Source of the DNA: Altererythrobacter sp. CAU 1644
GTDB taxonomy: Bacteria > Pseudomonadota > Alphaproteobacteria > Sphingomonadales > Sphingomonadaceae
DNA length: 64,000 bases
Assembly (NCBI RefSeq): GCF_029623755.1
Contig: NZ_CP121106.1
Span: 248,001 to 312,000, forward strand
Direction of reading: 5' to 3'
The notes under the pieces were generated by a model. That model saw only the letters and a program-made list of their open reading frames with translations. It did no database searches and was not told the origin of the DNA. Numbering within the stretch: the stretch's first letter is position 1; every line of letters starts with the position of its first letter. Shown in pieces: positions 30,018-54,116 of this stretch. A program made the position numbers and the translations under genes.

Positions 30018-30046
30018 TTGTCACAAATATCGATTTCGATATAAAT
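30018..30046 (+). promoter_or_regulatory. Island operator 1 within the promoter of the amidohydrolase-P450 operon
   Basis: Operator ATATCGATTTCGATAT at 30027-30042, two 7-bp arms around TT. A -35 TTGTCA (30018-30023) and -10 TATAAA (30040-30045, 16-nt spacer) straddle it, so a bound repressor would block RNA polymerase. The ATG of the first gene is at 30066. Confidence 0.7.
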
Positions 30047-30065
30047 GATCTGAGGGATAGGGGTT

Positions 30066-31409
30066 ATGGAAGCCAAGAACCAGTCCACGCTCATCGAGAA
30101 CGGTCTCGTCTTCGACGCTACCGGCGCGGCCGCCAGTGTGCAGCCGATTGCCTTTGACGGCGAAATCGCCGCCACTGGTCAGGCCGCGCTAGACTGGGCC
30201 GAGGGGCGCAACGATGTGAACCGCATCGACGCCAGCGGCTGCACCGTGATGCCCGGCCTGATCGACGCGCATTGCCACATCAGCTTCGACGAACCGCATT
30301 CGAACGACGAATTATTCTTCCACCGGCGAGAGGGACTCTCGGCGCTGGTCGCGGCGCATAATGTCCAGAAAGTGCTCCGCTCGGGCGTCACCAGCCTATT
30401 CGATGCCGACACGATATTCAGCGTCTCATTGGACCTGCGCGACGCGATCGAGGGCGGCGTGTGCGAAGGACCGCGCATGACCTGCGGCGGCAACGCGCTG
30501 TTCACTTCGGTGGGTGGCACGGCGGGCATGCTGGTGCCGGACGAAGGCGCGATCGGCTATCTCAAGGTAACGCGCACCAAGGACGAGATCGTCACCGAAA
30601 TCCGCAACCAGGCGAAGCGCGGGGTCGACTGGATCAAGATCCATGTCACCGGCCTCATCCCGCGCCAGCGCGGCGAAGGCGAAATCCAGGTCTGGAATTA
30701 CGACGAGCTCAAGCTGGCGGTCGATACCGCACACGAGCTTGGTCTCCCGGTGACCGGGCACTGCCGCAATGCCAGCTCGACCCGCGATGCGGCGCGCGCC
30801 GGTTTCGACATGATCCTCCACGCCACCTATATGGATGAGGAAGCGCTCGAGACGGTGATCGAGCACAAGACGCCGATCGTGCCGACGCTGACCTTCCAGG
30901 CGGTGCTGGCCGACCATGGCGACAAGATCGGATCGAGCGCCTTCCTGAAAGACCTGTTCGCCAAGGAGATCGAGGAAAGCTGCGTCCAGCTCAAGCGCGC
31001 CTATGACGCCGGTGTCCCGATGATGTGCGGTACCGAGAGCGGTTTCTCGATCACGCCCTATGGCGAATGGCACTGGCGCGAGCTCCAGGTCTTTGTCGAG
31101 AACATGGGGCTGACCCACGAACAGGCGCTGATCTGCGCCACGCGCGAGGGCGCGCGGGCGCTCAAGATGCAGGACCGGCTCGGCACGCTCGAGGAAAGTC
31201 GCATCGCCGATGTCATCGTGGTCGAAGGCGACGTGACCAAGGATGTCACACTGCTTGGGCGGCCGGGCGGCATGAAGCACATCTTCAAGGGAGGCCGGCG
31301 CATCGACACCGAGACGCCGCTGCCCACCCGCACGCCGCTGCCATCGTGGAGGGTCTCGAACTACTCGACCCTGCCCGCAACCCGCGCAACGACTCTAGGC
31401 TGGAAGTAA
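30066..31409 (+). CDS. Metal-dependent amidohydrolase, first gene of the P450 operon
   Basis: A 447-residue amidohydrolase-superfamily protein (imidazolonepropionase/prolidase-like type). HxH is H69/H71 in GLIDAHCHISF, followed by K191 (DWIKIHVTG), H232 (TGHCRN) and H252 (ILHATYM). The position usually filled by the catalytic Asp is E324 (CGTESG instead of CGTDSG). It would hydrolyse an amide, lactam, lactone or similar bond in the island pathway. The stop overlaps the P450 start by one nucleotide (TAATG). Confidence 0.82.
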   Translation: MEAKNQSTLIENGLVFDATGAAASVQPIAFDGEIAATGQAALDWAEGRNDVNRIDASGCTVMPGLIDAHCHISFDEPHSNDELFFHRREGLSALVAAHNVQKVLRSGVTSLFDADTIFSVSLDLRDAIEGGVCEGPRMTCGGNALFTSVGGTAGMLVPDEGAIGYLKVTRTKDEIVTEIRNQAKRGVDWIKIHVTGLIPRQRGEGEIQVWNYDELKLAVDTAHELGLPVTGHCRNASSTRDAARAGFDMILHATYMDEEALETVIEHKTPIVPTLTFQAVLADHGDKIGSSAFLKDLFAKEIEESCVQLKRAYDAGVPMMCGTESGFSITPYGEWHWRELQVFVENMGLTHEQALICATREGARALKMQDRLGTLEESRIADVIVVEGDVTKDVTLLGRPGGMKHIFKGGRRIDTETPLPTRTPLPSWRVSNYSTLPATRATTLGWK

Positions 31410-32629
31410 TGTCCGGGCACGAAGTCTCTACCTATGACGGCTGCGTCCATGCGCTGAAGCAGCCCGACCTGCGTCAATCGCTCTATGACGCGGCGGCGCT
31501 GATGATGAGCGATGTGCTGGTCAATCTGCATGGCAAGGAGCACCGCGCTCGGCGGCTGGTCGAAGGGACGATCTTCCGCAAGGATGTGTTCCTCCATTAC
31601 GAGAAGAACTTCCTGCCTCGCACGCTCGACGAAACGATCCGGCCCTTCCTCGAGGCGGGGCGCGGCGATCTGGTCGACATCGGCTATCGGGTGATGATGA
31701 ACCTGACGGTCGATTTCGCCGGGATTGATCGCCCCGAACGCAGCCATGAGGAAACCAGCGAGCTGCTGCGCCTGCTTAAGGAATTCAGCCTCGCGCCAGC
31801 GCTTGGGCAATCGCTCGAAGACGATATCGAGCCCAAGAAAGCCCGCATCCGCAAGGCGATGGGTGAATTCGAAGAGCGCTTCCTTACGCCCTCACGCCGC
31901 CGCCGCGAAGCTCTGCTGGCCGAAGTCGAGGCGGGCCGCATGGAGAAGGACGAACTGCCCGACGATGTGTTGATGGCGCTGATCCTGGGCCAGGAAAAGC
32001 TCCAGATGACCGACGAGCAGTTCCTGCAGGAAGGCATCTTCTACATGCTCGCAGGGGCGCATACGACGATCCATTCGCTCGCCCATGCGATGCACGAACT
32101 GTTCGAATGGCTCGATGCGAACCCTCAGGATATCGCGCTGCTCAAAGACGATCCCTTCTTTATCCAGCGCTGCGTGTTCGAAAGCCTGCGGCTGCACCCG
32201 TCGAGCCCCGTCGCCAAGCGCCGCGCGCTCTGCCCGGTGACGCTGGCCGAGGGCGAGGAAGTGCCCGAAGGCGAGGAGGTCGTGGTCAACATGCGCCAGG
32301 CCAATCGCAATCCCGAATTGTTTGGCGAGGATCCCGACCGTTACAATCCGCATCGCGAAGTGTCTGGCGGCAAGACGCCCTATGGCCTCTCGATGGGCTA
32401 CGGCATGCACGCCTGCATCGGGCGCAATCTCGCGATCGGAGTCGAATCGCGACCCAACTCCACCGCCGAAGACCATCAATACGGCACCGTCCCGCTGATC
32501 GTCGAAGCGCTGCTGCGCTTTGGCGTGCAGCGCGATCCGGATGGCGAGCCGAGGAAGGACGAGACCATCACCCGCATCACTTGGTCCGAATATCCCGTCG
32601 TGTTCAAGCCCGAAGAGGCGCTGATCTGA
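31409..32629 (+). CDS. Cytochrome P450 (first of a tandem pair)
   Basis: A 406-residue soluble bacterial P450. I-helix AGAHT (215-219), E258-x2-R261 and the heme loop GYGMHACIG with Cys336 are all present. It inserts oxygen into a hydrophobic substrate. ATG 31409 overlaps the amidohydrolase stop; the end overlaps the second P450. The loop after the heme Cys carries an insertion (VESRPNSTAEDHQYG) also seen in modified form in the neighbour. No ferredoxin or reductase gene lies in the island, so redox partners must come from elsewhere. Confidence 0.9.
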   Translation: MSGHEVSTYDGCVHALKQPDLRQSLYDAAALMMSDVLVNLHGKEHRARRLVEGTIFRKDVFLHYEKNFLPRTLDETIRPFLEAGRGDLVDIGYRVMMNLTVDFAGIDRPERSHEETSELLRLLKEFSLAPALGQSLEDDIEPKKARIRKAMGEFEERFLTPSRRRREALLAEVEAGRMEKDELPDDVLMALILGQEKLQMTDEQFLQEGIFYMLAGAHTTIHSLAHAMHELFEWLDANPQDIALLKDDPFFIQRCVFESLRLHPSSPVAKRRALCPVTLAEGEEVPEGEEVVVNMRQANRNPELFGEDPDRYNPHREVSGGKTPYGLSMGYGMHACIGRNLAIGVESRPNSTAEDHQYGTVPLIVEALLRFGVQRDPDGEPRKDETITRITWSEYPVVFKPEEALI

Positions 32630-33837
32630 TGGAGGTGCATCGGCTGACTGATTATCGCGAGTGCGAGGCAGCTCTGCGCAATCCGGATCTGCGGCAGGCG
32701 ATGTATGATGCAGGTGCGGTTATCACCGAGGGCACCTTGCTGATGCTGCACGGCAAGCCGCACCTCAAACGGCGCGAGATCGAATCGCGCGTATTCCGGC
32801 GCAACTTCTTCAAATATTACGAGAAAGAGGTCTTCCCGGCGACGCTTGAGCACACGCTGGCGCCATTTGTCGCTGCCGGTGGCGGTGACCTGATCGAGCT
32901 TGGCTATCGCCTTACAGTCAATCTCACGGCCGATTTTGCCGGAGTGGACCGGCCGCTGAAAACGGTCGAGGAGACCGAGCAGTTAATCAGGCTCACCAAG
33001 AAATTTTCCGAAGCGGCGACGATGGTTCATTCGACCCGTGACAAGACCGAGCTGGAAGCCGAAGTTCGCGAAGCGATCGCAGAGTTCGACACAGTGTTCC
33101 TGACACCCTCGATAACCAGACGCGAAGACTTGCTGGCACAGTTTCAGGCTGGCGGAATCGAAGAGGACGATCTGCCGCGCGACGTGCTGACCGTCATCCT
33201 GCGCGGGCAAGACGAACTGCAGTTCGATCATTCGCAGCGCATCCGCGAGATCGGGTTCTACATGCAGGCCGGATCGCATTCGACCGCCAATTCGGTCGTC
33301 CACGCGATCGAGGAAATCCTCGCTTGGGCGGGCGATGACGAGGCGCGTTGGGAGCGGCTGGAAGACCCGGTCTTCGTCCAGCACTGCGTCCATGAAAGCC
33401 TGCGCCTCCATCCGGCCAGCCCGGAAGCCTGGCGTGCACCGACTTGCCCGATGCATATCGAGGGTGCGGGCGACCTTGAAGTCGAGGAGCTGATCATTCT
33501 CGATTTTTTCAATGCCAATCGGGATCCGGAATTGTTCGGCGAGGATGCCGACATTTTCGAACCGGACAGACCGGCACCCAGAGGCGCGATGAAGACCGGG
33601 CTCAGTTTCGGATTCGGGACACATCACTGCCTGGGCCGCGAATTGGACGGGGGCGTATTGGTCAAGCCAGGAACGCCGCCAGAGAAAGCGCAGTTCGGCA
33701 TCGTCCCGCTTATCGTGATCAAGCTGCTCTCGCTTGGTGCGCGCAAGGTCGCCGATGATCCGCCGACGCCCGACACCAAGACGGTCCGGCCCAATTGGGG
33801 CCGCTATCCCATCCAGTTCGCCAGGGAGATGACATGA
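32629..33837 (+). CDS. Cytochrome P450 (second of a tandem pair)
   Basis: A 402-residue P450 paralogous to the previous gene along its whole length (shared LHGK.H..RR, VNLTADFAG versus VNLTVDFAG, AGSHST, ESLRLHP, heme loop FGFGTHHCLG with Cys334). Glu256 and Arg259 form the ExxR pair. The two were probably produced by tandem duplication and then diverged; they could act on successive intermediates or form a heterodimer. Starts in TGATG overlap with the first P450 and overlaps the SDR start (ATGA). Confidence 0.9.
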   Translation: MEVHRLTDYRECEAALRNPDLRQAMYDAGAVITEGTLLMLHGKPHLKRREIESRVFRRNFFKYYEKEVFPATLEHTLAPFVAAGGGDLIELGYRLTVNLTADFAGVDRPLKTVEETEQLIRLTKKFSEAATMVHSTRDKTELEAEVREAIAEFDTVFLTPSITRREDLLAQFQAGGIEEDDLPRDVLTVILRGQDELQFDHSQRIREIGFYMQAGSHSTANSVVHAIEEILAWAGDDEARWERLEDPVFVQHCVHESLRLHPASPEAWRAPTCPMHIEGAGDLEVEELIILDFFNANRDPELFGEDADIFEPDRPAPRGAMKTGLSFGFGTHHCLGRELDGGVLVKPGTPPEKAQFGIVPLIVIKLLSLGARKVADDPPTPDTKTVRPNWGRYPIQFAREMT

Positions 33838-34577
33838 GCCGCAGCGCCATCGTTACCGGCAGCGCCAATGGCATCGGCGCGACTATCGCCACTTTGCTCG
33901 CCGCCAAGGGCTATCGCGTCGGCATTCTCGACCGCGATGAAGCGGCGGTTGCGCAACGCTGTGGCGAGGTCGTCGGGGCGTTCGCCCTGCCCTGCGACGT
34001 GCGCGATCCTGCCTCTGTCGAGCGCGCCTTCGACGCCTTTGGCGATGCGCCCGATCTGCTGGTGAACAATGCCGGGATCGTGCGCTTCGGCCAGCTTGCC
34101 GAGCAGAGCGACGACGATATTCGCGCGGTGATCGAAGTGAACCTGATGGGCGTGTTCTGGGCGACCCGTTCCGCCGTGCGCCGCATGGCCGGGCGTGGCA
34201 GCGGGCATGTGATCTCGCTCACCTCGATCAATGCCTATTCGCCCGGCCCCGGATCGGGTGCCTATCCCGCGAGCAAGGCCGGGGTGAAGCAGCTGATGAA
34301 GCAGTTCGCGCTCGAATATGGCGAGAACGGCATTCGCTTCAATTCGATCGCTCCGGGCTTCATCGACGGCGGCATGTCGACCCCAATTTACGCCGATCCC
34401 AAGGTGCGCGCCGCGCGCAGCAAAGGCGTTCCGCTCGGTCGTCTAGGTACGCCAGAAGACATAGCCAACGCCGTCGCATTCCTCGATTCGCACGAGGGCG
34501 CTTACATCAATGGGCACGATCTCATCGTCGATGGCGGGGTGACGCATGCGGTGCTCAAGAATCTGCCGCGCGAATAG
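33834..34577 (+). CDS. SDR-family oxidoreductase
   Basis: A 247-residue classical SDR: TGSANGIG cofactor loop, LLVNNAGIV, SLTSINAYSPGPGSGAYPASK with the catalytic Ser, Tyr and Lys, and IDGG..DLIVDGGVTHAV at the end. An Asp (GILDRDE) after the second strand favours NAD(H). It probably oxidises a hydroxyl made by the P450s. Overlaps both neighbours by 1-4 nt, so it is translationally coupled. Confidence 0.88.
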   Translation: MSRSAIVTGSANGIGATIATLLAAKGYRVGILDRDEAAVAQRCGEVVGAFALPCDVRDPASVERAFDAFGDAPDLLVNNAGIVRFGQLAEQSDDDIRAVIEVNLMGVFWATRSAVRRMAGRGSGHVISLTSINAYSPGPGSGAYPASKAGVKQLMKQFALEYGENGIRFNSIAPGFIDGGMSTPIYADPKVRAARSKGVPLGRLGTPEDIANAVAFLDSHEGAYINGHDLIVDGGVTHAVLKNLPRE

Positions 34578-35266
34578 TGTCGCGGGCGGCGATCCTGCTT
34601 AGTGGAGGCTATTCGCACCCCTTCCACGATTCCTCCCCTGCCCTGGCAGAGCTGATCGCCGAAGCCGGCTGGTCACCGCAGATCGAAATCGACATCGACA
34701 CGGCGGTGTCGCAACTGGCCGAACGGCCGGCACTGCTTGCGGTCAATGCTCTTCACTGGTCGATGATGCAGCATGAGAAGTATGCGCCGGACCGCGCCGA
34801 GTATGCCTACGCCCTACCCTATCAGCACATGGACGCGATCGAGACCTATGTCGCAGGCGGGGGACGTCTATATGTCCAGCATGTCGGCACCATTTGCTTC
34901 GACACTCAACCACGGTGGTGCAAGGTCATGGGAGGCGGCTGGAGCTGGGGGCGCTCTCACCACCCGCCGATGGGGCGGATCACCGTGCGACTGACCGATG
35001 CGGGCACAAAGCTCTCATCGGGCCCGGCAGAGTTCGAACTGCTCGACGAAGCCTACCACAATCTCGACCCGCAAGAGGATTGCACAGTGCTTGCCACTTG
35101 CGCGATCGATGAAGGTCCGCAGCCGATTGCGTGGGTCAGGCATTTCCGAACAGGTCGTGTGGCGGTCGATGCGCTCGGCCACGATGCGCGATCGATCAAC
35201 GCGGCTGGGCACCGCGAGCTGATTGCGGGCCAACTCGAATGGTTGAAGGGAACGGGTGATGCGTGA
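34577..35266 (+). CDS. ThuA-like domain protein
   Basis: A 229-residue protein with the glutamine-amidotransferase-like fold of ThuA proteins: AAILLSGGYSHPFHDSSPAL at the start, YVAGGGRLYVQHVGTICF in the centre and PIAWVRHFRTGRVAVDALGHD near the end. ThuA proteins are linked to sugar 3-keto metabolism in some bacteria; the role in this operon is unknown. Start is GTG 34577 overlapping the SDR stop (TAGTG). Confidence 0.7.
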   Translation: MSRAAILLSGGYSHPFHDSSPALAELIAEAGWSPQIEIDIDTAVSQLAERPALLAVNALHWSMMQHEKYAPDRAEYAYALPYQHMDAIETYVAGGGRLYVQHVGTICFDTQPRWCKVMGGGWSWGRSHHPPMGRITVRLTDAGTKLSSGPAEFELLDEAYHNLDPQEDCTVLATCAIDEGPQPIAWVRHFRTGRVAVDALGHDARSINAAGHRELIAGQLEWLKGTGDA

Positions 35267-36020
35267 GATTGCAGGTCAAGGCGTGCTGATCACCGGAGGC
35301 GGATCGGGCCTCGGCGAAGCAACCGCGCGCTACCTGACCGAACGCGAAGCAAAGGTCACGATCACTGGCCGCCGCGCCGACCGGATCGCGGAAAAGGCCG
35401 CGGAAATTGGCTGCAACGGCATCGCGGGCGATGTGACCAGCGCCGAAGATCGCGCTGCCATGGTCGAGGCTGCCGTCGACAACGCGGGCGGGCGGCTCGA
35501 CTGCCTGTTCAACAATGCCGGCAATATGGTGCGCGGGCCGGTGGAGGAGCTGGATGAGCAGGAGCTGCTCGCCATCTTTCATGCCAATGTCGTCGGCGCG
35601 ATGATGCTGACCGGGCTGGCCACGCCTCACCTCGCGGCGACCAAGGGCCTCGTGCTCTTCGTCGGCTCGGTCCATACCCAGCGCGCCTTTCCCGGCGCGT
35701 CGCCCTATGCCGCGACCAAGGCGGCGGTGGAAACGCTGGCGAAGGTCTATGCCGCCGAGCTGGGCGATCGCGGCATTCGCGTGAATTGCGTGATCCCGGG
35801 CAGTGTACTCACCGAAATCAACGTGCGCGCAGGGTTGGTGAGCGAAGAAGAGGCCAAGGCGCGCTACGAGACGCTCAACATGATCCAAACCATCGACCGG
35901 CTAGGTCAGGGCGAGGATATCGCGCAGGCGGTCGCCTATTTCATGGAGAGCGACTTCACTACAGGTACCAGCCTAACCGTCGATGGTGGCATGGGCCTCG
36001 GCGTCACGCGCGGAATCTGA
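35259..36020 (+). CDS. SDR-family oxidoreductase
   Basis: A 253-residue classical SDR: TGGGSGLG loop, LFNNAGNM, FVGSVHTQRAFPGASPYAATK with Ser, Tyr and Lys, and LTVDGGMGLG. An Arg pair after strand two (TGRRADR) suggests NADP(H). It is the last gene of the amidohydrolase operon, and its stop abuts that of a convergent paralogue (36021-36800) with no gap. ATG 35259 lies inside the ThuA gene's last codons. Confidence 0.87.
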   Translation: MREIAGQGVLITGGGSGLGEATARYLTEREAKVTITGRRADRIAEKAAEIGCNGIAGDVTSAEDRAAMVEAAVDNAGGRLDCLFNNAGNMVRGPVEELDEQELLAIFHANVVGAMMLTGLATPHLAATKGLVLFVGSVHTQRAFPGASPYAATKAAVETLAKVYAAELGDRGIRVNCVIPGSVLTEINVRAGLVSEEEAKARYETLNMIQTIDRLGQGEDIAQAVAYFMESDFTTGTSLTVDGGMGLGVTRGI

Positions 36021-36800
36021 TCACTTAGGCTTGGTCGCGACCCCGGCAGAGGCGCCCAGCCCGATCCCGCCGTCCACTTCGAGCGCGACCCCGGTCACCC
36101 ATTCGGCGCGGATGAGATATTCGATTGCTTCGGCAATCTCGCGCGCCGTGCCGATCCGCCCCAGCACATGCTCGCGCGCGATCGCAACATAGCGCTCTTC
36201 GATATCTTCCGGCCTCATCACCCCGGCGCTGGTATTGAGTTCGGTGATCACAGCACCGGGCAGCACGCAATTGACGCGAATCTGGCGCGGCCCAAGCTCC
36301 GCCGCCATGACCCGCGTCAGCCCCTCGACCGCGGCCTTGGCGGTCGCATAGGGGCTCGCCCCGGCAAAGGCGCGCCGCGTGTGGGTAGAGCCGATGAAGG
36401 TGATCGAGCCTTCCCGTTCAGCCAGATGCGGCACCGCCATGCTCGAAAGCATCATCCCCGAGATGACATTGGTGTCGAAGGCCTGCCGCAGATGCTCTTC
36501 GGTGTAGCCATCGACCGGCTGGCGGAACATCGCCCCGGCATTGTTGACCAGCGCCTCCAGCCCACCGCCATGGTCGAGCGCCGCCGCCATCATCGCTTCG
36601 CGGTCCGACTGGACAGTGACGTCTCCCGCCATTACCCGGCAGTTGGGGCCGATCTCTTCGGCGAGTGCGTCGAGGCGGTCCTGCCGCCGCGCGGTCGCGG
36701 TCACCCTTGCCCCCTGCGAAGCGAGATAGCGCGCGGTCTCCTCGCCAATGCCCGAACTCGCGCCGGTCACCAGCACCGACATGCCCTCGATCGCGCGCAT
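36021..36800 (-). CDS. SDR-family oxidoreductase, paralogue of its convergent neighbour
   Basis: A 259-residue classical SDR: TGASSGIG, LVNNAGAMF, FIGSTHTRRAFAGASPYATAK and LEVDGGIGLG. These stretches match the gene at 35259-36020 closely, so the two are paralogues placed tail to tail. It is the last gene of the five-gene leftward operon that starts at 40092, 4 nt after the flavin monooxygenase gene. Confidence 0.87.
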   Translation of the reverse strand: MRAIEGMSVLVTGASSGIGEETARYLASQGARVTATARRQDRLDALAEEIGPNCRVMAGDVTVQSDREAMMAAALDHGGGLEALVNNAGAMFRQPVDGYTEEHLRQAFDTNVISGMMLSSMAVPHLAEREGSITFIGSTHTRRAFAGASPYATAKAAVEGLTRVMAAELGPRQIRVNCVLPGAVITELNTSAGVMRPEDIEERYVAIAREHVLGRIGTAREIAEAIEYLIRAEWVTGVALEVDGGIGLGASAGVATKPK

Positions 36801-36804
36801 CGCG

Positions 36805-37917
36805 CTACTCCCTCAGGCCCGCCTGCCGCATCAACGGCAGTATCTCGCTTTCGAGCTGCGCAAGGCCGGCATCATAGTCGATCCAGCTGAGCGTCAGCCC
36901 GTCGAGCCCAGCATCGGCGAACTTGACAAGCCCTTCGACCACCTGCTCCTTGGTGCCCACCAAAGGGATCGCCCCGTAACCGGCGATGAGATTGGCGGCC
37001 ATCGCTTCCCACCCGTCACCCAGCGCGCTCTTCGAATTGGGGATCAGGACGTCGAGCAAATTTCGCACACCTTCCCAGTCGCCGCGCTTCTCCACCGCCT
37101 CGCGGATATAGTCCTGCGCTTCCTTCTCGGTCTCGCGGCAGACTACATAGGCCTGGCCGAAGACCTGCATCTTTCGTCCGAACTTGTCCTTCGCCAGCGC
37201 CCGCCCGCGCGCCGCGATCTCGCCCGCCTTGGCGATATTCTGCGCGACGACGAAATTGACGTCGGTGTGCTGTGCCGCGAATTCCTGCCCGCGCGCGCTG
37301 TTGCCTGCGCTCATCAGCGCCGGCCAAGGGCGCTGCACCGGCTTGGGCTGCGAATAGAGCTGCGGCGATTGCAAGAAGGGCCCGTCGTAATCGAATGGCT
37401 CCTCGCGCGTCCACAGCGCCTTGCACATCTCGATCCAGTCGTCCGAATAATCGTAGCGCTCGTCATGTTCGCGCTGCTCCAGCCCGAACATCGCGATTTC
37501 CTTGTAATTCCACCCTGCGACGATGTTGAGGCCGAACCGCCCGCCTGAGATGTGGTCGATGGTCGCCACTTCCTTCGCCGCGCGGACGGGGTGAACCGTC
37601 GGCACATGGAAGGTCGCGAAGATCGAGGAATATTCGGTCACCGCCGATAGCCCCGCCGCCCAGGTGAAGGTCTCGAAATTGCGGTGGTTGAAATTGACCT
37701 TGCCGCCCATACCCTTCCACCGCGCGACCGGGATGATCGCCTCGAATCCTAGCCGGTCGGCGGTCTGCGCGATGCGCTTGCTCTCGTCCCATGTGACATT
37801 GAGCGTCGCCGGATCTTCGACCATCGAACAGCCGTTCGAGACATTGAGCCCGAACAGGCCGAGCTTCAGGCGGTTGCTGCTCGACAGGATCGGGTTGCTC
37901 GTGCGGTGTTCGTCCAT
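36805..37917 (-). CDS. LLM-class (luciferase-like) flavin-dependent monooxygenase
   Basis: A 370-residue luciferase-like monooxygenase: FGLNVSNGCSM at the N-terminus, HISGGRFGLNIVAGWNYKEIAMFG in the centre, YDYSDDWIEMCKALWTREEPFDYDG, and ALMSAGNSARGQEFAA. These resemble the SfnG/RutA-like group that uses reduced FMN and oxygen to cleave C-S, C-N or C-C bonds or insert oxygen. No flavin reductase gene is in the island, so reduced flavin must be supplied elsewhere. It lies in the leftward operon between two oxidoreductase/hydrolase steps. Confidence 0.87.
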   Translation of the reverse strand: MDEHRTSNPILSSSNRLKLGLFGLNVSNGCSMVEDPATLNVTWDESKRIAQTADRLGFEAIIPVARWKGMGGKVNFNHRNFETFTWAAGLSAVTEYSSIFATFHVPTVHPVRAAKEVATIDHISGGRFGLNIVAGWNYKEIAMFGLEQREHDERYDYSDDWIEMCKALWTREEPFDYDGPFLQSPQLYSQPKPVQRPWPALMSAGNSARGQEFAAQHTDVNFVVAQNIAKAGEIAARGRALAKDKFGRKMQVFGQAYVVCRETEKEAQDYIREAVEKRGDWEGVRNLLDVLIPNSKSALGDGWEAMAANLIAGYGAIPLVGTKEQVVEGLVKFADAGLDGLTLSWIDYDAGLAQLESEILPLMRQAGLRE

Positions 37918-37920
37918 GAC

Positions 37921-39683: not shown

Positions 39684-39699
39684 CGCAATCTCACTCCCT

Positions 39700-40104: not shown

Positions 40105-40146
40105 TTGACATCAAACGTTCCGGGGGTGAAGTATCGATTTCGATAC
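40105..40146. promoter_or_regulatory. Island operator 2 between two divergent operons
   Basis: GTATCGATTTCGATAC at 40131-40146, a perfect 7-bp inverted repeat around TT. It sits 38 nt from the leftward start (40092) and 14 nt from the rightward TTG start (40161). A TTGACA (40105-40110) on the plus strand could be the -35 of the rightward promoter, in which case the operator covers -10 to about +5. Confidence 0.68.
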
Positions 40147-40697: not shown

Positions 40698-40701
40698 CCT
40701 C

Positions 40702-43195: not shown

Positions 43196-43207
43196 GGGGG
43201 GGCCGGA

Positions 43208-44549: not shown

Positions 44550-44562
44550 GGGCGCGCTTGTG

Positions 44563-45150: not shown

Positions 45151-45168
45151 TGGTGTGCAATATCCTTG

Positions 45169-45951: not shown

Positions 45952-48317
45952 CAGCCCTGCTCCCCCTGTTGGCACAGCCGCCAGATCTTCTCCGGCGTCG
46001 CTGGCATATCGACATGACGCACGTCCAGCGCATTGCAGACCGCATTGATGATCGCGGGCGGCGAACCAATCGCGCCAGCCTCGCCGCAGCCTTTCATGCC
46101 CAGCGGATTGCTCGGCGATGGCGTGCCACTGAAGACGAGCTTGTATTCGGGGACGCCGCCCGCACGCGGCATGCCGTAGTCCATGAAACTCGCCGACATC
46201 AGCTGGCCGGTGTCGGGATCGTAGAGCGCGTTCTCCCACAGCGCCTGTCCGATGCCCTGTGTCACCCCGCCGTGGACCTGGCCTTCGACGATCATCGGGT
46301 TGGCGACATTGCCGAAATCGTCGGCAGCGCAGAAGCTCGCGACCTCGACCGTTCCGGTGTCGGGATCTATCTCTACTTCGCACACATAGACGCCCGCCGG
46401 ATAGGTGAACTCGGGCGGATCGAAGAAGCTGGTCGCGACGAGGCCGGGCTCGATCTCGTCGGTCGGGAAGCCCGATGCGGCATGCGCGGCGAAGGCCATT
46501 TCGGCAAAGGCGATGGTGACATTGCTGTCCTTGCTCGAGAAAATGCCGTCCTCGAACTCGACCGCGTCGTAATCGACCTCCATCAGATGCGCGGCGATCT
46601 TCTTGCCCTTCTCGATGATCTGGTTGCAGGCGCGCAGCGTCGCAGACATGCCGACCGAAGCGCGCGAGCCATAGGTGCCGGTGCCCGCCTGGATGCGCGC
46701 TGTATCGCCCTGGATGACAGAGACATTCTCGATCGGGACACCGAAGCGGTCGGACACGATCTGCGCGAAAGTCGTCGCATGGCCCTGACCATGCGAATGC
46801 GCGCCGGTGAGCACTTCGACCGTACCGACGGGATGCACGCGTACCTCGGCCGATTCCCACATGCCCGCGCCGCCGCCGAGCTTCGCTAGCTTGCCCGAGG
46901 GGCCGATGCCGCAGGCCTCGACATAGGCGGCGAGCCCGAGCCCGCGCAGCTTGCCGCGCGCCTCGCTCTCGGCCTTGCGGCCGGCAAACCCGCGGTAATC
47001 GGCGAGTTCGAGCGCCGCATCGAGCGTCTTCTCATAGTCGCCCGAGTCATACTCGTAGACGACCGGAGTCTGGTACGGGAACTGGCGGATGAAATTGCGC
47101 CGCCGGATTTCGGCCGGATCGATTCCGAGCTCGCGCGCGGCGACATCGACGATCCGTTCGATCACATAGGCCGCCTCGGGTCGCCCGGCGCCGCGATAGG
47201 CGTCGACCGGGCAGGTGTTGGTATAGATCGCACGCACCCGCGCATGGATAGCCGGGATCGCATACTGGCCCGAAAGCATGGTCGCATACATGTAGGTCGG
47301 CACCAGCGAGCCAGAGCTCGACAGATAGCCGCCGACATTGGCCTGCGTATCGACCCTGAGCGCAAGAAAGCGGCCCTTGGCATCGAGCGCAAGTTCGACA
47401 TCGGTCAGGTGATCGCGGCCATGTGCATCGGTTAGGAATGCCTCGCTGCGATCGGCGGTCCATTTGACCGGCCCTTCGACCAGCTTGGATGCGAATGTCA
47501 CCGCGACTTCCTCGGGATAGTTGTGCGCCTTCGACCCGAAACCGCCGCCCACATCGGGCGAAACCATCCGCAGCTTGTGCTCCGATGCCAGTCCGAAGGC
47601 GGCAGCATAGAACATGCGCATGCCGATCGGATTCTGATGCGTCATGTAGACGGTGAGCTCTTCGCTTCCCGCATCCCATTGCGCGTTGATTGCGCGCGGC
47701 TCTATCGCATTGGGGACGAGCCGGTTGTTCCGCAGCGTGAGCGCGACGCGATGCGCAGCTCCGGCGAAACCGGATTCGGTCGCGGCTGCATCGCCCAGTT
47801 CCCAATCGAAGGCGCAGTTTCCGGCTATCTCGTCATGGATCAGTGTCGCGTCATCTGCCGTTGCATCGAGCACGTCGACCAGGGCAGGCATGTCATCGTA
47901 ATCGACCATGACGGCTTCAGCCGCATCGCGCGCCTGCGCCTGCGTCTCGGCGATGACCAGAGCAACCGGCTCGCCGACATAGCGGACGCGGTCGACCGCC
48001 AGCGCATTGCGCACGCCGACCTTCATTGGCACTCCATCGCGCGAGGTGATCGCCCAGCCGCAAGGCAGCGCGGGCAGGCCCGCGTCGACCAGTTCCTGGC
48101 CGGTCAGGATGCGGCGGACCCCAGGCATTCCTGAGGCACCTTCGATATCCAGCCCGGTGATCCGCGCATGCGCCATCGGCGAGCGCACGAAGGCGGCATA
48201 GAGCTGTCCCGGCAGGATCATGTCGTCGACATATTTGCCCTTGCCGCGCAGGAAGCGGCCGTCTTCCTGCCGCTTGACCGACTGGCCGAATTTCACGCTG
48301 GTAGCCGCAATATTCAT
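45951..48317 (-). CDS. Molybdenum hydroxylase, large catalytic subunit (CoxL-like, AYRGAGR type)
   Basis: A 788-residue xanthine-oxidase-family catalytic subunit: KRQEDGRFLRGKGKYVDD, PDVGGGFGSKAHNYPEE, AYRGAGR (373-379) and the catalytic Glu loop GMKGCGEAGAIGSP near the C-terminus. True CO dehydrogenases (form I) have AYxCSFR with the Cu-binding Cys; here AYRGAGR means a form II-like hydroxylase of aldehydes, purines or N-heterocycles. Overlaps the small-subunit gene by 4 nt. Confidence 0.92.
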   Translation of the reverse strand: MNIAATSVKFGQSVKRQEDGRFLRGKGKYVDDMILPGQLYAAFVRSPMAHARITGLDIEGASGMPGVRRILTGQELVDAGLPALPCGWAITSRDGVPMKVGVRNALAVDRVRYVGEPVALVIAETQAQARDAAEAVMVDYDDMPALVDVLDATADDATLIHDEIAGNCAFDWELGDAAATESGFAGAAHRVALTLRNNRLVPNAIEPRAINAQWDAGSEELTVYMTHQNPIGMRMFYAAAFGLASEHKLRMVSPDVGGGFGSKAHNYPEEVAVTFASKLVEGPVKWTADRSEAFLTDAHGRDHLTDVELALDAKGRFLALRVDTQANVGGYLSSSGSLVPTYMYATMLSGQYAIPAIHARVRAIYTNTCPVDAYRGAGRPEAAYVIERIVDVAARELGIDPAEIRRRNFIRQFPYQTPVVYEYDSGDYEKTLDAALELADYRGFAGRKAESEARGKLRGLGLAAYVEACGIGPSGKLAKLGGGAGMWESAEVRVHPVGTVEVLTGAHSHGQGHATTFAQIVSDRFGVPIENVSVIQGDTARIQAGTGTYGSRASVGMSATLRACNQIIEKGKKIAAHLMEVDYDAVEFEDGIFSSKDSNVTIAFAEMAFAAHAASGFPTDEIEPGLVATSFFDPPEFTYPAGVYVCEVEIDPDTGTVEVASFCAADDFGNVANPMIVEGQVHGGVTQGIGQALWENALYDPDTGQLMSASFMDYGMPRAGGVPEYKLVFSGTPSPSNPLGMKGCGEAGAIGSPPAIINAVCNALDVRHVDMPATPEKIWRLCQQGEQG

Positions 48318-48790
48318 GGCCGGCCCTCCATCTTACTCGCCCCTTCGACGATAGAGGCGATGATGTTCTGGTAGCCTGTGCAGCGGCAGAGATTGCCTTC
48401 AAGTTCCTCGCGTACAGTTGCCGGATCGGGTTTGCCGTGGCGCCGCGCGATATCGAGTCCGACCATCACCATGCCAGGCGTGCAGAAGCCGCATTGCAAC
48501 CCGTGATTGTCATGGAAGGCCTGCTGCATCGGATGGAGCGGTTCGCCCTCTTTCGCCAGCCCTTCGATGGTGGTGACGCTGCACCCGTCGGCCTGGACCG
48601 CGAGCATGGCGCAGCTCTTCACCGCCTTGCCGTCGACATGGACGGTGCAAGCACCGCACTGGCTTGTGTCGCAGCCCAAGTGCGCGCCTGTCAGCCGCAA
48701 ATGATCGCGCAAAGCATGAATGAGCAGCGTGTTGTCGGGCAGATCGAGCTTTGTCGGCCTGCCGTTCACCTCCAGCGAAATTTCGGTCAT
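48314..48790 (-). CDS. Molybdenum hydroxylase, 2[2Fe-2S] small subunit (CoxS-like)
   Basis: A 158-residue subunit with the plant-ferredoxin-type cluster ligands C40, C45, C48 and C60 and the second, helical-domain cluster C100, C103, C135 and C137. It conveys electrons from the Mo centre to the FAD. First gene of the leftward operon small-large-medium-CoxG-XdhC, 71 nt from operator 3. Confidence 0.93.
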
Positions 48791-48851: not shown

Positions 48852-48880
48852 ATGCCAATACCTATCGATATCGATATAAA
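48852..48880. promoter_or_regulatory. Island operator 3 between the Mo-hydroxylase operon and the MocA-like gene
   Basis: CTATCGATATCGATAT at 48862-48877, whose core TATCGATATCGATA is fully palindromic. On the plus strand -35 ATGCCA (48852-48857) and -10 TATAAA (48875-48880) flank it with 17-nt spacing, the same geometry as at operator 1. It could control both directions. Confidence 0.65.
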
Positions 48881-48904: not shown

Positions 48905-49477
48905 ATGACCGGCGTGGGCCACGTGGGATTGGTGCTCCTCGCCGCCGGTCGATCGCGGCGGTTCGGACCGCAGGACAAGCTGGCGCAGGACTGGCGCGGC
49001 AAGCCGCTCGCTCGCCATGCCGCCGATACGCTCGCTGCCCTGCCCTTCGCTGCGCATATCGCCGTGGTCGGCGAGGACAGCCGCTTGCAGCTGCCCGAGC
49101 AATTCGAAACCGTCACCAATCCCGATCCGGCGCTGGGTTTGTCGCACTCGATCGCGCTGGGGGTCGAGGCGCTGCTGCCGCGCCATCTCGATGCCTGCCT
49201 CATTGCGCTGGCCGACATGCCACTGGTGCCTGAGGCCCATTTCCTAGCGCTACTCGATGGCGTTGCTCGCAGCGATGGCGACATCGTCGCCACCGCCAAT
49301 GGCGATCGGGCCCAGGTTCCAGCGGTGTTCGGCAAAGAGCATTTTGCAGCGCTGATCGCTTTGACCGGCGATCAAGGCGCGCGCGAATTGCTGCGGACGG
49401 CCCGCACCATCCCTTGCGACGCGGAGCTTCTGGCCGATTTCGACCGCCCGGAAGACTTCGCCCGTAACGCCGACTGA
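48905..49477 (+). CDS. MocA-like molybdopterin cytidylyltransferase
   Basis: A 190-residue nucleotidyltransferase: VLLAAGRSRRFGPQDKL is the NTP-binding loop, ALADMPLVPEAHFLALL contains the metal Asp, and AQVPAVFGKEHFAALIALTGDQGARELL is typical of MocA/MobA relatives. Xanthine-oxidase-family enzymes in bacteria need the cytosine form of the cofactor, which MocA makes, so this gene belongs functionally to the divergent Mo-hydroxylase operon. AGGAG (48893-48897) precedes ATG 48905. Confidence 0.85.
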   Translation: MTGVGHVGLVLLAAGRSRRFGPQDKLAQDWRGKPLARHAADTLAALPFAAHIAVVGEDSRLQLPEQFETVTNPDPALGLSHSIALGVEALLPRHLDACLIALADMPLVPEAHFLALLDGVARSDGDIVATANGDRAQVPAVFGKEHFAALIALTGDQGARELLRTARTIPCDAELLADFDRPEDFARNAD

Positions 49478-51376
49478 TCAGCGCTTGGGCGCGAATACCA
49501 GCAGCACATTCCCGGCCTCGTGCTGGTAGAGGCCGTAGCCGGAATTGATCACGAGATGGCCGTCGCCGACCGCTGCGCCCGGCCCGGACATGCTCCCGCC
49601 GCGCCCCTTCATGCCATTGACCGTTTCGAACGGTCTGGCGCTGTTGAACTCCCACAAGCGCTTGCCGGACTTACGATCGTAGGCCCTGATCCAGCCGTCC
49701 ATGTGTCCGGCGACCACTGCTCCGGGAATCGCCGTCACCGCAGCCGACACGCCCGGATCGCAGAAAGGTCGACCTTCGCCGCAGACGTTCTTCTGTACCT
49801 GGCTCCACAGCTTCGTGCCCGTGCGCGCGTCGACCGCATGCATTCCCGGACGAGCCGCTTTCGGATCGAGCGGATCGCCATTGCGCGTGTTGTTCATGTC
49901 GTTGATCGGGACATAGACCGTGGTGCCCTCGGCCGCCATGCCCCAGTGCACGCCGCCCTGGATACTGCCGCGACCGATCTTGGTCTCCCACAGAACCTTG
50001 CCCTTGGCGTCGGGATCGAGCCCATAAACCATGCCGTTTTTGTGGCCGACCGCAAGCACCTGCTTGCCGCCACCCACATCGATCAGCAGCGGCGAAGAGG
50101 AATGGTCGAAGTCCGGCCCGCGTTCGGGCGGGCAGTTGGGATTGTCCTCCATCATGCAGGCGACGTTCCACGCGTCGCCCGAGATCGTCTGGCGGTGCCA
50201 CACGCGCCGCCCGGTGTTAAGGTCGATTGCGAAGATCGAGTCGCTGTTCCCGTCAGCGGGCGAGGAATAGTTCTCGCCGGTCCCGGCATAGAGCACGCCG
50301 CGCTTGGGATCCACGGTCGGGCTGGTCCACATCGGCGCGCCCGACGGGGCGTAGCTGGCCTTGCCGTTTTTCTCGCTACGCTTGGGCTCTTCGGGAATGG
50401 CCCAGAACTGCCACTTCACTTCGCCGCTCTTGGCATCGATTGCGTCGAGATGGCCGCGGAAGGTACAGCATTCGTAATTCGGATCTGCCGCCGGGACGAC
50501 CTCGAGCGAGGATACCGGTACATATAGCGTGCCGTCATGGAACGCCGGCGTGCCCGTCAGCGTGGCGCTGGGGTGGTCGTCCATTCGCCGCGACCACTGC
50601 TGCTCGCCGGTCAGGGCATCGACGGCGTAGAGCTTGCTGGTGAGATCCCCGAAATAGACCATCGGCGTAGCACCATCGACCAGCACGATGCCCGTGCGGA
50701 CTTCTGCGGAAGCCTTGAAAGTCCAACGCGCACAGCCCGTCTCAAGGTCGAAGGCATAGACCGTACCGTCGTCGCTGCCCACGTAGGCTGCGCCATAGCC
50801 GATCGCAGGCTGCGAGCGTGCCTTGGTCGCATTGGGGAATGCATAGGACCATTTGAGCTCAAGTTCGCCCAGATCGCCACCCTCGAGGCCGCCGAGCGCC
50901 GAAGAAACGAACCGGCGCGTATCGTGGCCCCAGCCGGCCTGGACGGCGGGCTTGGCGCGATCGAACCGGGCTGCCGAACCTTTACACTTGGCGGCATAAT
51001 TCACGTCAGGCAGTCCGTCCGAAAGGTCCACCCGGGTGATATATTCGGCCACGCGTAGCTTCTCATCTTCGGAGAGCATCGCGCCCTGTTCGGCCATCAC
51101 GCCTCCGCTCAGCGCGGCGACAATCGAGGCGGGCGACATCATTTCAAGCCACTGGAAGTGCGGCGCTTTCGGTACGCTCCCGTCATGGCAAGAGGCGCAA
51201 TTCTCGGCATAGAGCTTTGCACCTGGCAGGCTGTCGCGATCAGCGATCAGCCCTTCGCCCGTCGCAAATTCGTCGGTTGATCCCAGCGTTTCTCCGCCGA
51301 CCAAGTCGGCCGTGTCACCACAGGAAACGAGCAACAAGGCGATCGCAAAAGCGGCGAGAGCACGTGCCTGAGTCAT
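49478..51376 (-). CDS. Cytochrome-c/PQQ quinoprotein dehydrogenase, PVA-dehydrogenase-like lipoprotein
   Basis: A 632-residue protein. Lipobox cysteine at 19 (LLVSC), a cytochrome c domain with C60-A-S-C63-H64, then a beta-propeller with repeated GxLYAVDALTG, IFAIDLNTGRRVW and VYGLDPDAKGKVLW blade endings. Adjacent cysteines C303-C304 resemble the vicinal disulfide near PQQ in quinoprotein alcohol dehydrogenases. It fits the polyvinyl-alcohol-dehydrogenase-like group, which oxidises alcohols in the periplasm and passes electrons to heme. Divergent from the TonB receptor across operator 4; its stop abuts the MocA-like gene. Confidence 0.85.
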   Translation of the reverse strand: MTQARALAAFAIALLLVSCGDTADLVGGETLGSTDEFATGEGLIADRDSLPGAKLYAENCASCHDGSVPKAPHFQWLEMMSPASIVAALSGGVMAEQGAMLSEDEKLRVAEYITRVDLSDGLPDVNYAAKCKGSAARFDRAKPAVQAGWGHDTRRFVSSALGGLEGGDLGELELKWSYAFPNATKARSQPAIGYGAAYVGSDDGTVYAFDLETGCARWTFKASAEVRTGIVLVDGATPMVYFGDLTSKLYAVDALTGEQQWSRRMDDHPSATLTGTPAFHDGTLYVPVSSLEVVPAADPNYECCTFRGHLDAIDAKSGEVKWQFWAIPEEPKRSEKNGKASYAPSGAPMWTSPTVDPKRGVLYAGTGENYSSPADGNSDSIFAIDLNTGRRVWHRQTISGDAWNVACMMEDNPNCPPERGPDFDHSSSPLLIDVGGGKQVLAVGHKNGMVYGLDPDAKGKVLWETKIGRGSIQGGVHWGMAAEGTTVYVPINDMNNTRNGDPLDPKAARPGMHAVDARTGTKLWSQVQKNVCGEGRPFCDPGVSAAVTAIPGAVVAGHMDGWIRAYDRKSGKRLWEFNSARPFETVNGMKGRGGSMSGPGAAVGDGHLVINSGYGLYQHEAGNVLLVFAPKR

Positions 51377-51447: not shown

Positions 51448-51473
51448 TTGACTTATATCGAAATCGATATATG
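51448..51473. promoter_or_regulatory. Island operator 4 between quinoprotein and TonB receptor genes
   Basis: ATATCGAAATCGATAT at 51455-51470, the reverse complement of operator 1. On the plus strand it begins 2 nt after a -35 TTGACT (51448-51453) and runs into the AT-rich -10 region (TATATG, 51468-51473). Repressor binding would cover the receptor promoter and probably also the divergent one. Confidence 0.68.
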
Positions 51474-51511: not shown

Positions 51512-53878
51512 GTGAAGCTCCGCGCATTTCCATATACTATGGCATCGGTCAGCGCGCTCGCGCTGCTCGCAACGGCTGCGCCTGCATGGGCGCAGGATGA
51601 CAGTGAGGCAGAGGCTGCCGAAGCCCAGGAAGGCGGCTTCGGTCAGATCATCGTCACGGCCAACCGCCGCGCCGAAGACGTGCAGGACGTCGCCATCGCT
51701 GTCACCGCGCTCAACGAGGAGCTGATAGAACAGAAGTTCAGCCGCGACTTGCTCGACCTCGGCAGCATCGCGCCAAACCTTGTGGTCGACCCGATCCTCG
51801 GCAACGGAACCGCGGCGATCTCGATCCGCGGTATCCAGCTCAACGATGTCGAGAAAAGCTTCGATCCGCCGGTCGGCGTGTTCCTCGATGGCGTATACCT
51901 GGCATCGACCACTGGCGCGCTACTCAATGTCTTCGATGCCGAGACCATCGAAGTCTTGCGCGGACCGCAAGGTACACTGTTCGGGCGCAACACCATCGGC
52001 GGCCTGATGCATGTCCGTCGTAATCGGCCAACCGGCGAGATGGGGGGCAAGCTCAGCGTCACTTACGGTCGCTTCGACCAGTTCGACATCAAGGGCGTGC
52101 TCAACCTCCCCTCATTCGCCAATGGCGCGATCAAGGCCAAGGTTGCGGCGGTGCGGCTCGATGGCGGCGGTTACTTCAAGAATATCACTCGCGGTGTGGA
52201 CGAGGGCGACAACGACCTGCTGATGATCAGTCCGATGGTCGAGTTCGAGCTTGGCAATCGCGGCGAGCTAACGCTGGTCTATGATTACATCCGCGATCGG
52301 ACGCCGACCCGGCCTGTTACCTCGCTGACCGATGTCAACCAGTTGTTCGGCTTCCCGCCGGGCAGCCCCGGCCTGGGCGCGCCAGCGAGCGATGCCAGCT
52401 TCCACCGGCGCACGACCACATCGCTGGAGCAGGATGCCAGGCTCGACACCCATTCGATCACGGCGAACGGACGCTACGAGTTTGCCGACGGCCACGAATT
52501 CCACGCGGTGTTCAATTATCGCGACACGGACGAGAATGCGATCCAGGAATTCGACGCCGTGGCGGCGACCCTGTTCAACACGATCAGGCCACAGCAGATC
52601 GATCAGCTTTCTGCCGAATTGCGCTATCACGGCGATCTGGGTGCGGCACAGCTGGTTGCCGGGCTCTACTACTTCGAGAGCGATTACAATATCAATCAGC
52701 AGACCTTCTTCTTCGGCGGAGAGGTCGGCGGGACCGACTACCAGCAAAGTGCCAAGAGCTATGCGGCCTTCGCCCAGCTGGACTGGGAGATTCTCGATGG
52801 TCTGACGCTGACGCTGGGCGGCCGTTACCTGGTCGACAAGAAATCCGCCTGCGGCGGACTCGGCCAAGGTCCTCGCAACAATCGTACGTTTCTGGTCTCC
52901 TACGGCGATTGCAGCGCCGAACGGCGCGCCGACCCCTCGTTCGACAACGCCATTCCTGGCGGGGGCACCGCCACAGGGCGGGAAACCTGGAAAAAATTCA
53001 CTCCCAAGATCGGCCTCAGCTACGACTTTGGCGATCAACTGATTTACGCGTCCTATTCGGAAGGCTTCCGTTCGGGCGGTTTCAACGGCCGCGGCAACAA
53101 CATCCTGACGCTCGGGCCGTACAACCCCGAAACGGTCGAGAACTGGGAAGTCGGCTTCAAGAGCGAATGGCTCGACAACCGCCTGATCGTGAACGGTGCG
53201 TACTTCAATACCAAATACAAGGACAAGCAGGAGGACGTCGTCTTCCCCGACCCGCGCGGGGCAACCGTCACAATCGTGCAGAACGCTGCAGCGGCGTCGT
53301 TGAGCGGCTTCGAACTCGAAACCCGGATCATGCCGACCGACGGCCTGACCTTCGGCTTGTCAGTGGGTCATCTCAGTGCAAGCTACGACGAATGGTTCGA
53401 CCAGGCGCCGCTGTTGGCAGGGCCCAATGCAGGCGATCTCGCCTTGATCGACAAGTCCGATTTCGAACTGCGTCGTTCGCCCGATTGGACGGTTCAGGCA
53501 GACGTCAATTACGAGTACGTCCTGGGCAATGGCGACTCCTTGGTCTTTGCCGCCGATTACGCGCTGAAGGACGACTACTACATCGTCGCCAATACCATCA
53601 ACACGCACACGGCTCTGCCCGGTGGCAGCAATCCCGGGCTGATCGACAGCTTCGGGCTTCTCAACGGGTCGGTTTCGTACAAGGCGGAGAACTTCAAGGT
53701 CTCGATCTTCGGGCGGAACCTGACCGGCGCCGACTACTTCCAGCACGTGCTGGATGTCGGCACCACCTTCGGAGTCTTGCCGGGCAGCACGGAACCCATT
53801 CCGACCTTCGCGCTCTGGAGCTTCGGCACGATCAACGCGCCAACCACCTACGGTGCGGAGGTGACGATCGAGTTCTGA
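51512..53878 (+). CDS. TonB-dependent outer-membrane receptor of the catabolic island
   Basis: A 788-residue receptor with signal peptide VKLRAFPYTMASVSALALLA (ending PAWAQ), plug entry FGQIIVTANRRAEDVQDVAIAVTALN, IEVLRGPQGTLFGRNTIGG, and a barrel ending TTYGAEVTIEF with the terminal Phe. The start is GTG 51512 behind GGGGAGG (51499-51505). By operator and neighbourhood it should import the substrate of the island or a complex of it. A strong terminator follows the gene. Confidence 0.92.
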   Translation: MKLRAFPYTMASVSALALLATAAPAWAQDDSEAEAAEAQEGGFGQIIVTANRRAEDVQDVAIAVTALNEELIEQKFSRDLLDLGSIAPNLVVDPILGNGTAAISIRGIQLNDVEKSFDPPVGVFLDGVYLASTTGALLNVFDAETIEVLRGPQGTLFGRNTIGGLMHVRRNRPTGEMGGKLSVTYGRFDQFDIKGVLNLPSFANGAIKAKVAAVRLDGGGYFKNITRGVDEGDNDLLMISPMVEFELGNRGELTLVYDYIRDRTPTRPVTSLTDVNQLFGFPPGSPGLGAPASDASFHRRTTTSLEQDARLDTHSITANGRYEFADGHEFHAVFNYRDTDENAIQEFDAVAATLFNTIRPQQIDQLSAELRYHGDLGAAQLVAGLYYFESDYNINQQTFFFGGEVGGTDYQQSAKSYAAFAQLDWEILDGLTLTLGGRYLVDKKSACGGLGQGPRNNRTFLVSYGDCSAERRADPSFDNAIPGGGTATGRETWKKFTPKIGLSYDFGDQLIYASYSEGFRSGGFNGRGNNILTLGPYNPETVENWEVGFKSEWLDNRLIVNGAYFNTKYKDKQEDVVFPDPRGATVTIVQNAAAASLSGFELETRIMPTDGLTFGLSVGHLSASYDEWFDQAPLLAGPNAGDLALIDKSDFELRRSPDWTVQADVNYEYVLGNGDSLVFAADYALKDDYYIVANTINTHTALPGGSNPGLIDSFGLLNGSVSYKAENFKVSIFGRNLTGADYFQHVLDVGTTFGVLPGSTEPIPTFALWSFGTINAPTTYGAEVTIEF

Positions 53879-53951
53879 TCGGGGACGGAGCAACGCTCTC
53901 GCTCCAAACTTGATCGCCGCTCTTCACTTTTGGGGGGTGAAGGGCAACCAG

Positions 53952-53979
53952 GGGCCCGGCTGAACGCCGGGCCCTTTTT
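53952..53979 (+). terminator. Rho-independent terminator after the island TonB receptor
   Basis: GGGCCCGGC (53952-53960), loop TGAAC, GCCGGGCCC (53966-53974), then TTTTT (53975-53979). Perfect 9-bp stem 73 nt past the stop codon. Confidence 0.92.
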
Positions 53980-54086
53980 GGTTGCCCGGCGCGACATCCG
54001 ATGGGTGCGTTGCAGGCCCGGTCCTGGAGTTTGGCAGGAAGCGCGGCGCGCGAAAGCGGCGCAGATCTCGCCGCGAGTGTTCGCGC

Positions 54087-54116
54087 TTGCCCAATTCCTA
54101 TCGATTTCGATGTATC
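54087..54116 (+). promoter_or_regulatory. Island operator 5 before the last SDR gene
   Basis: CTATCGATTTCGATGT at 54098-54113 (one mismatch in the right arm). A possible -35 TTGCCC (54087-54092) and a weak -10 (GATGTA/TGTATC, 54109-54116) straddle it as at operator 1. The SDR start is at 54176. Confidence 0.6.

Follow-up and report, generated by a model that had tools for sequence, protein, structure and literature searches.

DesR, a MarR-type protein of the sphingomonad Sphingobium sp. SYK-6, acts in vanillate and syringate catabolism. It represses its own gene as well as several catabolic units by way of similar inverted repeats, and its effectors are compounds of the pathway (PMC6888825). 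CouR of Rhodococcus jostii RHA1 is a MarR-type repressor of a catabolic gene set that is released by a pathway metabolite (PMC4737184), and PheR of Sphingobium sp. SHPJ-2 represses a sphingomonad degradation operon and is released by the substrate (PMC13273656). Here we describe a comparable arrangement in Altererythrobacter sp. CAU 1644, within 64,000 nucleotides of contig NZ_CP121106.1 (positions 248,001 to 312,000). This whole stretch is called the window below, and positions are counted from its first base. The window contains an island of 25 genes, marR included, in which up to eight transcription units start at five sites, each occupied by a short palindrome. Judged from sequence comparison, we consider it probable (about 0.84) that these palindromes are the operators of a single MarR-type repressor, encoded inside the island at 42725-43195, and that a compound of the pathway releases this repressor.

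Palindromes at the operon heads

Four of the five sites (30028, 40132, 48863 and 51456) match the 14-bp core of the palindrome, TATCGAWWTCGATA, without mismatch, and the fifth, at 54099, differs from it by one base. All five 16-bp palindromes were located exactly where a first-pass annotation had placed them:

30027..30042: operator 1, ATATCGATTTCGATAT, precedes the amidohydrolase-P450 unit and is kept in four genomes
40131..40146: operator 2, GTATCGATTTCGATAC, separates the divergent units 2a and 2b
48862..48877: operator 3, CTATCGATATCGATAT, separates the Mo-hydroxylase unit from the MobA-like gene
51455..51470: operator 4, ATATCGAAATCGATAT, separates the quinoprotein and TonB-receptor genes
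54098..54113: operator 5, CTATCGATTTCGATGT, one core mismatch, precedes the last SDR; the identical variant stands before the same gene in genome G292

The genome-wide scan for many unrelated copies, which the first-pass annotation had proposed as a refuting test, did not refute its reading: it found four perfect copies of TATCGAWWTCGATA in the 3,241,744-base genome, all four inside the island and within a span of at most 21.5 kb of the window. With up to one mismatch there are eight places (the four perfect copies, operator 5, window position 12288 and two distant copies), versus one for the reversed control pattern. The copy at 12288 falls within the last part of a short frame, lipoyl-domain-like by eye, and corrects the earlier statement that the window held no further copy. 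Both distant copies are located inside frames, named by eye as an AlkA-like glycosylase and a LolD-like ABC protein. In the 25-kb island, five matches with at most one mismatch compare with none in any of 30 first-order Markov sequences; in the window, 16 matches with up to three mismatches compare with 4.9 on average and at most 11 in 100 shuffles. When two mismatches and free centre bases are allowed, the genome yields 294 matches versus 50 for the control, so that weak matches by themselves, outside promoters, carry little meaning.

For solitary palindromes in genomes without marR, long open frames were considered as a criterion for an intragenic position. This criterion was dropped, since four of the five window sites also fall in long frames and it does not discriminate.

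Conservation in rearranged islands

In the sequences compared, the palindrome stays with the operon heads despite gene inversion, loss and reordering in related islands. G292 has all five sites, each at the corresponding operon head. Four recur with at most one mismatch in G092 and G018, where no close SDR5 was found beside the TonB gene. G765, a genome added once the model had been formed, has an inverted island in which neither MobA nor SDR5 was found, yet a site is kept in all four control regions (two perfect, two with one mismatch), with the Mo-hydroxylase site now between the quinoprotein and Mo-hydroxylase genes. Gene order within the island differs in G242, G284, G289, G174 and several named loci, where a site is still present at many operon heads.

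G242 also encodes a second marR paralog (L056, C4:56881-57243), which is 43-46% identical, lies about 29 kb from the cluster marR and has a one-mismatch palindrome 115 bp upstream.

Association of marR with the palindrome

Gene and palindrome were also found together across larger samples. In a genus sample of 100 genomes, for which all candidates were scored, marR occurs in three genomes having 4, 4 and 2 perfect palindromes; among the 97 genomes without marR, seven have one perfect copy, 90 none and none two (Fisher test for two or more copies, p 6e-6). In a family sample of 298 genomes, perfect palindromes were detected in 8 of 9 marR carriers versus 35 of 289 others (Fisher 8e-7), and at least two perfect copies in 4 of 9 versus 5 of 289 (p 5e-5). 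Most perfect copies in the nine carriers (16 of 19) lie near marR. A class sample gave a marR match at 1e-15 in two of 385 genomes, one being the genome of the window and the other (G481) showing no site. At most 12 (family) and 10 (class) candidates per genome were scored, and a missed marR is possible in these two samples.

Scans of every 6-base arm with spacers of 0-8 bases were performed on groups of loci. In a group of 13 loci (12 sphingomonad and one Caulobacteraceae, excluding the window and its three nearest loci), TATCGA-N2-TCGATA came first, with perfect arms in five loci and one arm difference in ten (tied with a nested variant). Near copies (L077, L080 and L081, of L076, G174 and L078 respectively) and the duplicates L068, L069, L070, L073, L075 and L079 had been dropped from this group. 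The distant group comprises 18 loci with a MarR 37-46% identical (17 titled Alphaproteobacteria or unplaced proteobacterium, one Alcaligenaceae; L092, taken as a near copy of L090, was dropped), in which marR is divergent from an amidohydrolase gene. With one difference allowed, the nested ATCGAT-N0 leads here with ten loci and TATCGA-N2 is joint second with eight. Eleven of the 18 loci have a match with at most two mismatches no more than 330 bp upstream of marR; the core of this group is ATCGA-WW-TCGAT, with the outer T-A pair weakly kept. Among 180 arm permutations, TATCGA ranked first in all three locus groups at both one and two mismatches. With at most one mismatch it was found in 16 of 20, 16 of 73 and 7 of 58 upstream regions, while the other permutations average at most 0.02 with a maximum of 2. 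The loci are not fully independent, since the resembling pairs L076/L103 and L099/L100 were all kept. By these comparisons, the pairing of protein and palindrome is one that recurs in many other Alphaproteobacteria.

The MarR protein and the promoter context

The 156-residue protein encoded by marR scores 39.2 bits with PF01047, the MarR winged-helix domain (curated cut-off 24.6). A winged-helix fold with flanking helices is supported by the predicted monomer (pLDDT 86.5), with FabT-DNA (16.5) and MepR (16.3) as best structure matches (VIA), and the best 50 structure matches are all MarR-type as far as their titles tell. FabT is a regulator of fatty-acid synthesis. The matched DNA complex is that of the Streptococcus pneumoniae protein (6jbx), with 17% identity to the island MarR.

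MarR proteins have a D-x-R motif with a role in the wing; its residues D95 and R97 are invariant in all ten aligned sequences, the window protein included. The recognition helix reads PQSTISHQ in nine of the ten and PHSTLAHQ in the paralog. All 17 NCBIfam MarR equivalog families listed (OhrR, TcaR, FabT, HpaR and others) stayed below their cut-off, the best being NF052638 with 40.8 bits versus 200. Pfam scans detected no second DNA-binding regulator among the 25 island genes, in agreement with the earlier description of MarR as the sole regulator inside the island; a histidine kinase and a response-regulator receiver protein are encoded at 56058-57744, outside it.

At operators 1 and 4 a TTG/TTGAC element stands shortly before the palindrome, which itself extends into AT-rich, -10-like sequence. 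Operator 1 fills a 16-bp gap, flanked or overlapped by TTGTCA (30018-30023) and TATAAA (30040-30045, by eye), and at operator 4 TTGACT (51448-51453) ends one base before the palindrome. An invariant TTGACA is located some 20 bp upstream of operator 2 (spacing by eye). Across four genomes, no change was seen in the TTG or TTGAC elements close to sites 1, 2 and 4, and in aligned promoter regions of sites 1-4 the palindrome is kept while much of the flanks drifts. The -35/-10-like hexamers of the first-pass annotation are thereby supported only in part. Strict sigma-70 promoters were not found: under the strict rule, none of the five site stretches gave a promoter-like hit, and the mode of repression is for this reason read from the weaker elements. 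The positions of the palindrome at sites 1, 2 and 4 would fit steric repression.

Operator 2 heads the marR operon, and operators 1 and 3-5 head other units. In the proposed mechanism, a MarR dimer would bind each TATCGA-WW-TCGATA with one recognition helix per half-site. At operators 1 and 4 the dimer would sit on or between the promoter-like elements and prevent the promoter from opening; the other sites are assumed to work alike. Up to eight transcription units with 25 genes would be blocked in this way, and control of the marR operon from operator 2 would amount to autoregulation. The pathway substrate or an early intermediate, probably imported via the TonB receptor and the MFS transporter of the regulon, may then bind MarR and release the dimer, a response that we infer from the protein family. 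Uptake, periplasmic oxidation by the quinoprotein, Mo-hydroxylation, P450, amidohydrolase and SDR steps and the cofactor maturation genes would be switched on jointly.

Alternative explanations

Several results weigh against one MarR repressor acting at all sites. Five family genomes without marR (G071, G115, G131, G169 and G187) have at least two perfect copies, although those of G131 overlap. G113 (MarR 59%) keeps the island with a single two-mismatch match and none before its VOC-MFS-MarR unit, and only two-mismatch sites were found in L071, L072 and L083. If perfect arms are demanded, no arm is prominent in the distant group and TATCGA is outside the top ten there. In this group, no site with at most two mismatches precedes marR in L084, L088, L090, L091, L094, L095 and L102 (best three in five of them, six in L084 and four in L102). 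L128 has no match with up to three mismatches across the whole locus. At operator 3, a conserved TGCCAA (TTGGCA on the Mo-hydroxylase strand) places the palindrome upstream of a possible -35 element. The geometry for this strand is ambiguous, and an activator could also sit there. The missing strict sigma-70 promoters count on the same side.

The alternative that survives best, although improbable, is that another regulator, encoded elsewhere in the genome, uses the palindrome as its operator, MarR being confined to its own operon or to some other target. AT-rich palindromes of this size are bound by members of many regulator families. Moreover, marR travels with the cluster genes in nearly all loci seen, so that co-occurrence alone cannot separate MarR from another cluster-linked factor, and G113 has marR and the island with hardly any site. 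Against this, distant loci with other gene orders have the palindrome between marR and the divergent amidohydrolase gene (the 11 of 18 above), the second marR paralog of G242 has its own site upstream, the island genes include no other regulator, and none of the 97 genus genomes without marR has more than one copy. Taken with the co-occurrence and with sites that follow the operon heads, the distant loci support the earlier proposal that the island MarR probably binds all five palindromes.

Less probable still is that MarR binds the sites but mainly activates, or activates some units and represses others. The arrangement at operator 3 and the failure of the strict promoter rule would suit such a role. 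MarR proteins of catabolic clusters, however, are usually repressors, and at operators 1 and 4 the palindrome occupies a repressor position, behind TTG/TTGAC and into the -10-like stretch. DesR, also of MarR type, is a repressor (PMC6888825).

That TCGA-rich sequence yields such palindromes without function is already very unlikely from the sequence comparisons, since the excess of weak genome matches and the perfect copies in family genomes without marR are set against perfect copies confined to the island in this genome, recurrence at the same operon heads elsewhere and first rank over the other 179 arm permutations.

Genes of the predicted regulon

The genes under the predicted control of MarR are as follows:

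30066..36020, + strand: unit 1, behind operator 1
30066-31409, + strand: amidohydrolase
31406-32629 and 32626-33837, + strand: two cytochromes P450
33834-34577, + strand: SDR
34577-35266, + strand: ThuA-like protein
35256-36020, + strand: SDR, last gene of unit 1
36021..40092, - strand: unit 2a, behind operator 2
39700-40092, - strand: LEH-family epoxide hydrolase
38907-39689, - strand: SDR
37921-38910, - strand: amidohydrolase-2/decarboxylase-like protein
36805-37917, - strand: LLM monooxygenase
36021-36800, - strand: SDR, last gene of unit 2a
40161..43615, + strand: unit 2b, behind operator 2, genes overlapping or at most 13 bp apart
about 40161 (TTG start, by eye) to 40697, + strand: VOC protein
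40651-41487 (open reading frame), + strand: FAA hydrolase
about 41484-42728, + strand: MFS transporter
42725-43195, + strand: MarR-family regulator, 156 aa
43208-43615, + strand: SnoaL-like protein
43593..48790, - strand: unit 3a, behind operator 3
48314-48790, 45951-48317 and 45169-45954, - strand: Mo-hydroxylase small, large and medium (FAD) subunits
44563-45150, - strand: CoxG
43593-44549, - strand: XdhC
48905..49477 (ATG about 48905), + strand: MobA/MocA-like nucleoside triphosphate transferase, divergent from unit 3a
49478..51376, - strand: quinoprotein (pyrroloquinoline quinone) dehydrogenase with cytochrome c domain
51512..53878, + strand: TonB-dependent outer-membrane receptor, divergent from the quinoprotein gene
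54176..54955 (ATG about 54176), + strand: SDR oxidoreductase, behind operator 5

These neighbours agree with the first-pass annotation, the epoxide hydrolase included, except that its MocA-like gene is better described as encoding a MobA-like transferase. The LLM monooxygenase and the adjoining SDR (36021-37917) were not found at the same place in G292, G092, G018 and G765; either this island gained them or the others lost them. In both P450s, about 20 residues seem to be inserted directly after the haem-cysteine motif (by eye). In the distant alphaproteobacterial locus L094, a branched-chain-amino-acid-type ABC transporter with binding protein follows the core genes (14546-18894).

Possible substrates

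By its content, the gene set provides for uptake (TonB, MFS), oxidation in the periplasm and Mo-hydroxylation, and it includes P450s and hydrolases. The 25 island genes showed no ring-hydroxylating dioxygenase, although VOC and amidohydrolase-2 proteins are present. CypX is the best, weak structure match of the P450s (3e-20 and 1e-8), the decarboxylase-like protein matches ACMSD, and the amidohydrolase matches prolidase/carboxypeptidase and ochratoxinase types. Naming a pathway from these matches was rejected because they imply no substrate.

Eleven named isolates carry marR: S. microcystinivorans DSM 19791, Novosphingobium MD-1, ERN07, PC22D and THN1, Rhizorhabdus histidinilytica UM2, Sphingomonas Y57, Zhengella mangrovi, Rhodobacteraceae CCMM004 and two Pararhodobacter. 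In THN1 the cluster is located on the 1.16-Mb plasmid pTHN, typed as conjugative, where a further one-mismatch palindrome lies further from the cluster core (L103:32882), possibly marking another regulon member. Four of the eleven are known from microcystin work, namely MD-1 (L076), ERN07 (L077), THN1 (L103, pTHN) and S. microcystinivorans (L070). Microcystin degradation is described for the species S. microcystinivorans (strain B-9), for MD-1 and for THN1, and a MlrB is listed for ERN07 (PMC9505733, PMC11070527, PMC7082461); the further degradation of Adda is reported to continue without the mlr genes (PMC12474180).

We also considered whether the microcystin (mlr) genes are under the same MarR. 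This is not supported, as their surroundings are nearly without the operator. In MD-1 and ERN07, 40 kb around the MlrC gene contain no palindrome with up to two mismatches. The corresponding 40 kb of S. microcystinivorans contain one perfect copy (C2:100196; L067:10197), 19-20 kb from mlrC. Some 440 bp separate this copy from a TonB-receptor-like frame (7542-9755) ahead of it; it falls inside a 380-aa open frame and may be due to chance. MlrC_C had no match in the genome of the window, in five of the eight other marR genomes or on pTHN. A close MlrC (89%) exists in one of the 298 family genomes, too small a number to show an association. Term searches of the accessible text of the THN1 genome paper found no mention of P450 or MarR (PMC6167471), and those of the accessible transcriptome paper text no mention of amidohydrolase, TonB or MarR (PMC6691742).

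The marR cluster may serve another bloom-derived compound. One form of this idea, to which we give a rather low probability, is an undescribed pathway with its own MarR sensor and a core of amidohydrolase, ACMSD-like decarboxylase, two P450s, SDRs and ThuA-like protein, extending from sphingomonads to Rhodobacteraceae, whose inducer and substrate would come from phytoplankton or cyanobacterial blooms, possibly as a cyanotoxin fragment such as Adda. A bloom-derived substrate is a lead only, since the window genome has no MlrC_C and the mlr neighbourhoods have no operator save the one copy 19-20 kb away.

Comparison with known systems

With a named operator, 25 loosely annotated genes become one predicted regulon. 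The operator would mark membership of the pathway, including for the TonB receptor, the Mo-hydroxylase maturation genes and the last SDR, and the pathway is found in many Alphaproteobacteria. Binding to a 16-bp fragment would serve to assay directly for the inducer, and through it for the pathway substrate. Searches of open-licence papers for the cluster, the regulator and the isolates showed no description of the regulon; the letters of the motif occur in three unrelated papers.

The described systems differ from the island in several respects. CouR is actinobacterial, serves a p-hydroxycinnamate pathway and has a known ligand (PMC4737184), whereas PheR belongs to the IclR family and recognizes the minimal motif GCAACG (PMC13273656). 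The repeats of DesR are 15 bp long (GTTTGTGTCACATAC and two like it) and occur in three places, whereas TATCGA-WW-TCGATA occurs in five places before up to eight units (PMC6888825). By eye, on the operator letters, the island operators do not match the GTTTGTGTCACATAC-like inverted repeat printed in that paper. Unlike the DesR regulon as described there, the island regulon would also cover uptake, Mo-hydroxylase and quinoprotein genes. In kind the regulon is ordinary, an instance of MarR-controlled catabolism as with DesR, and it is larger than the DesR example.

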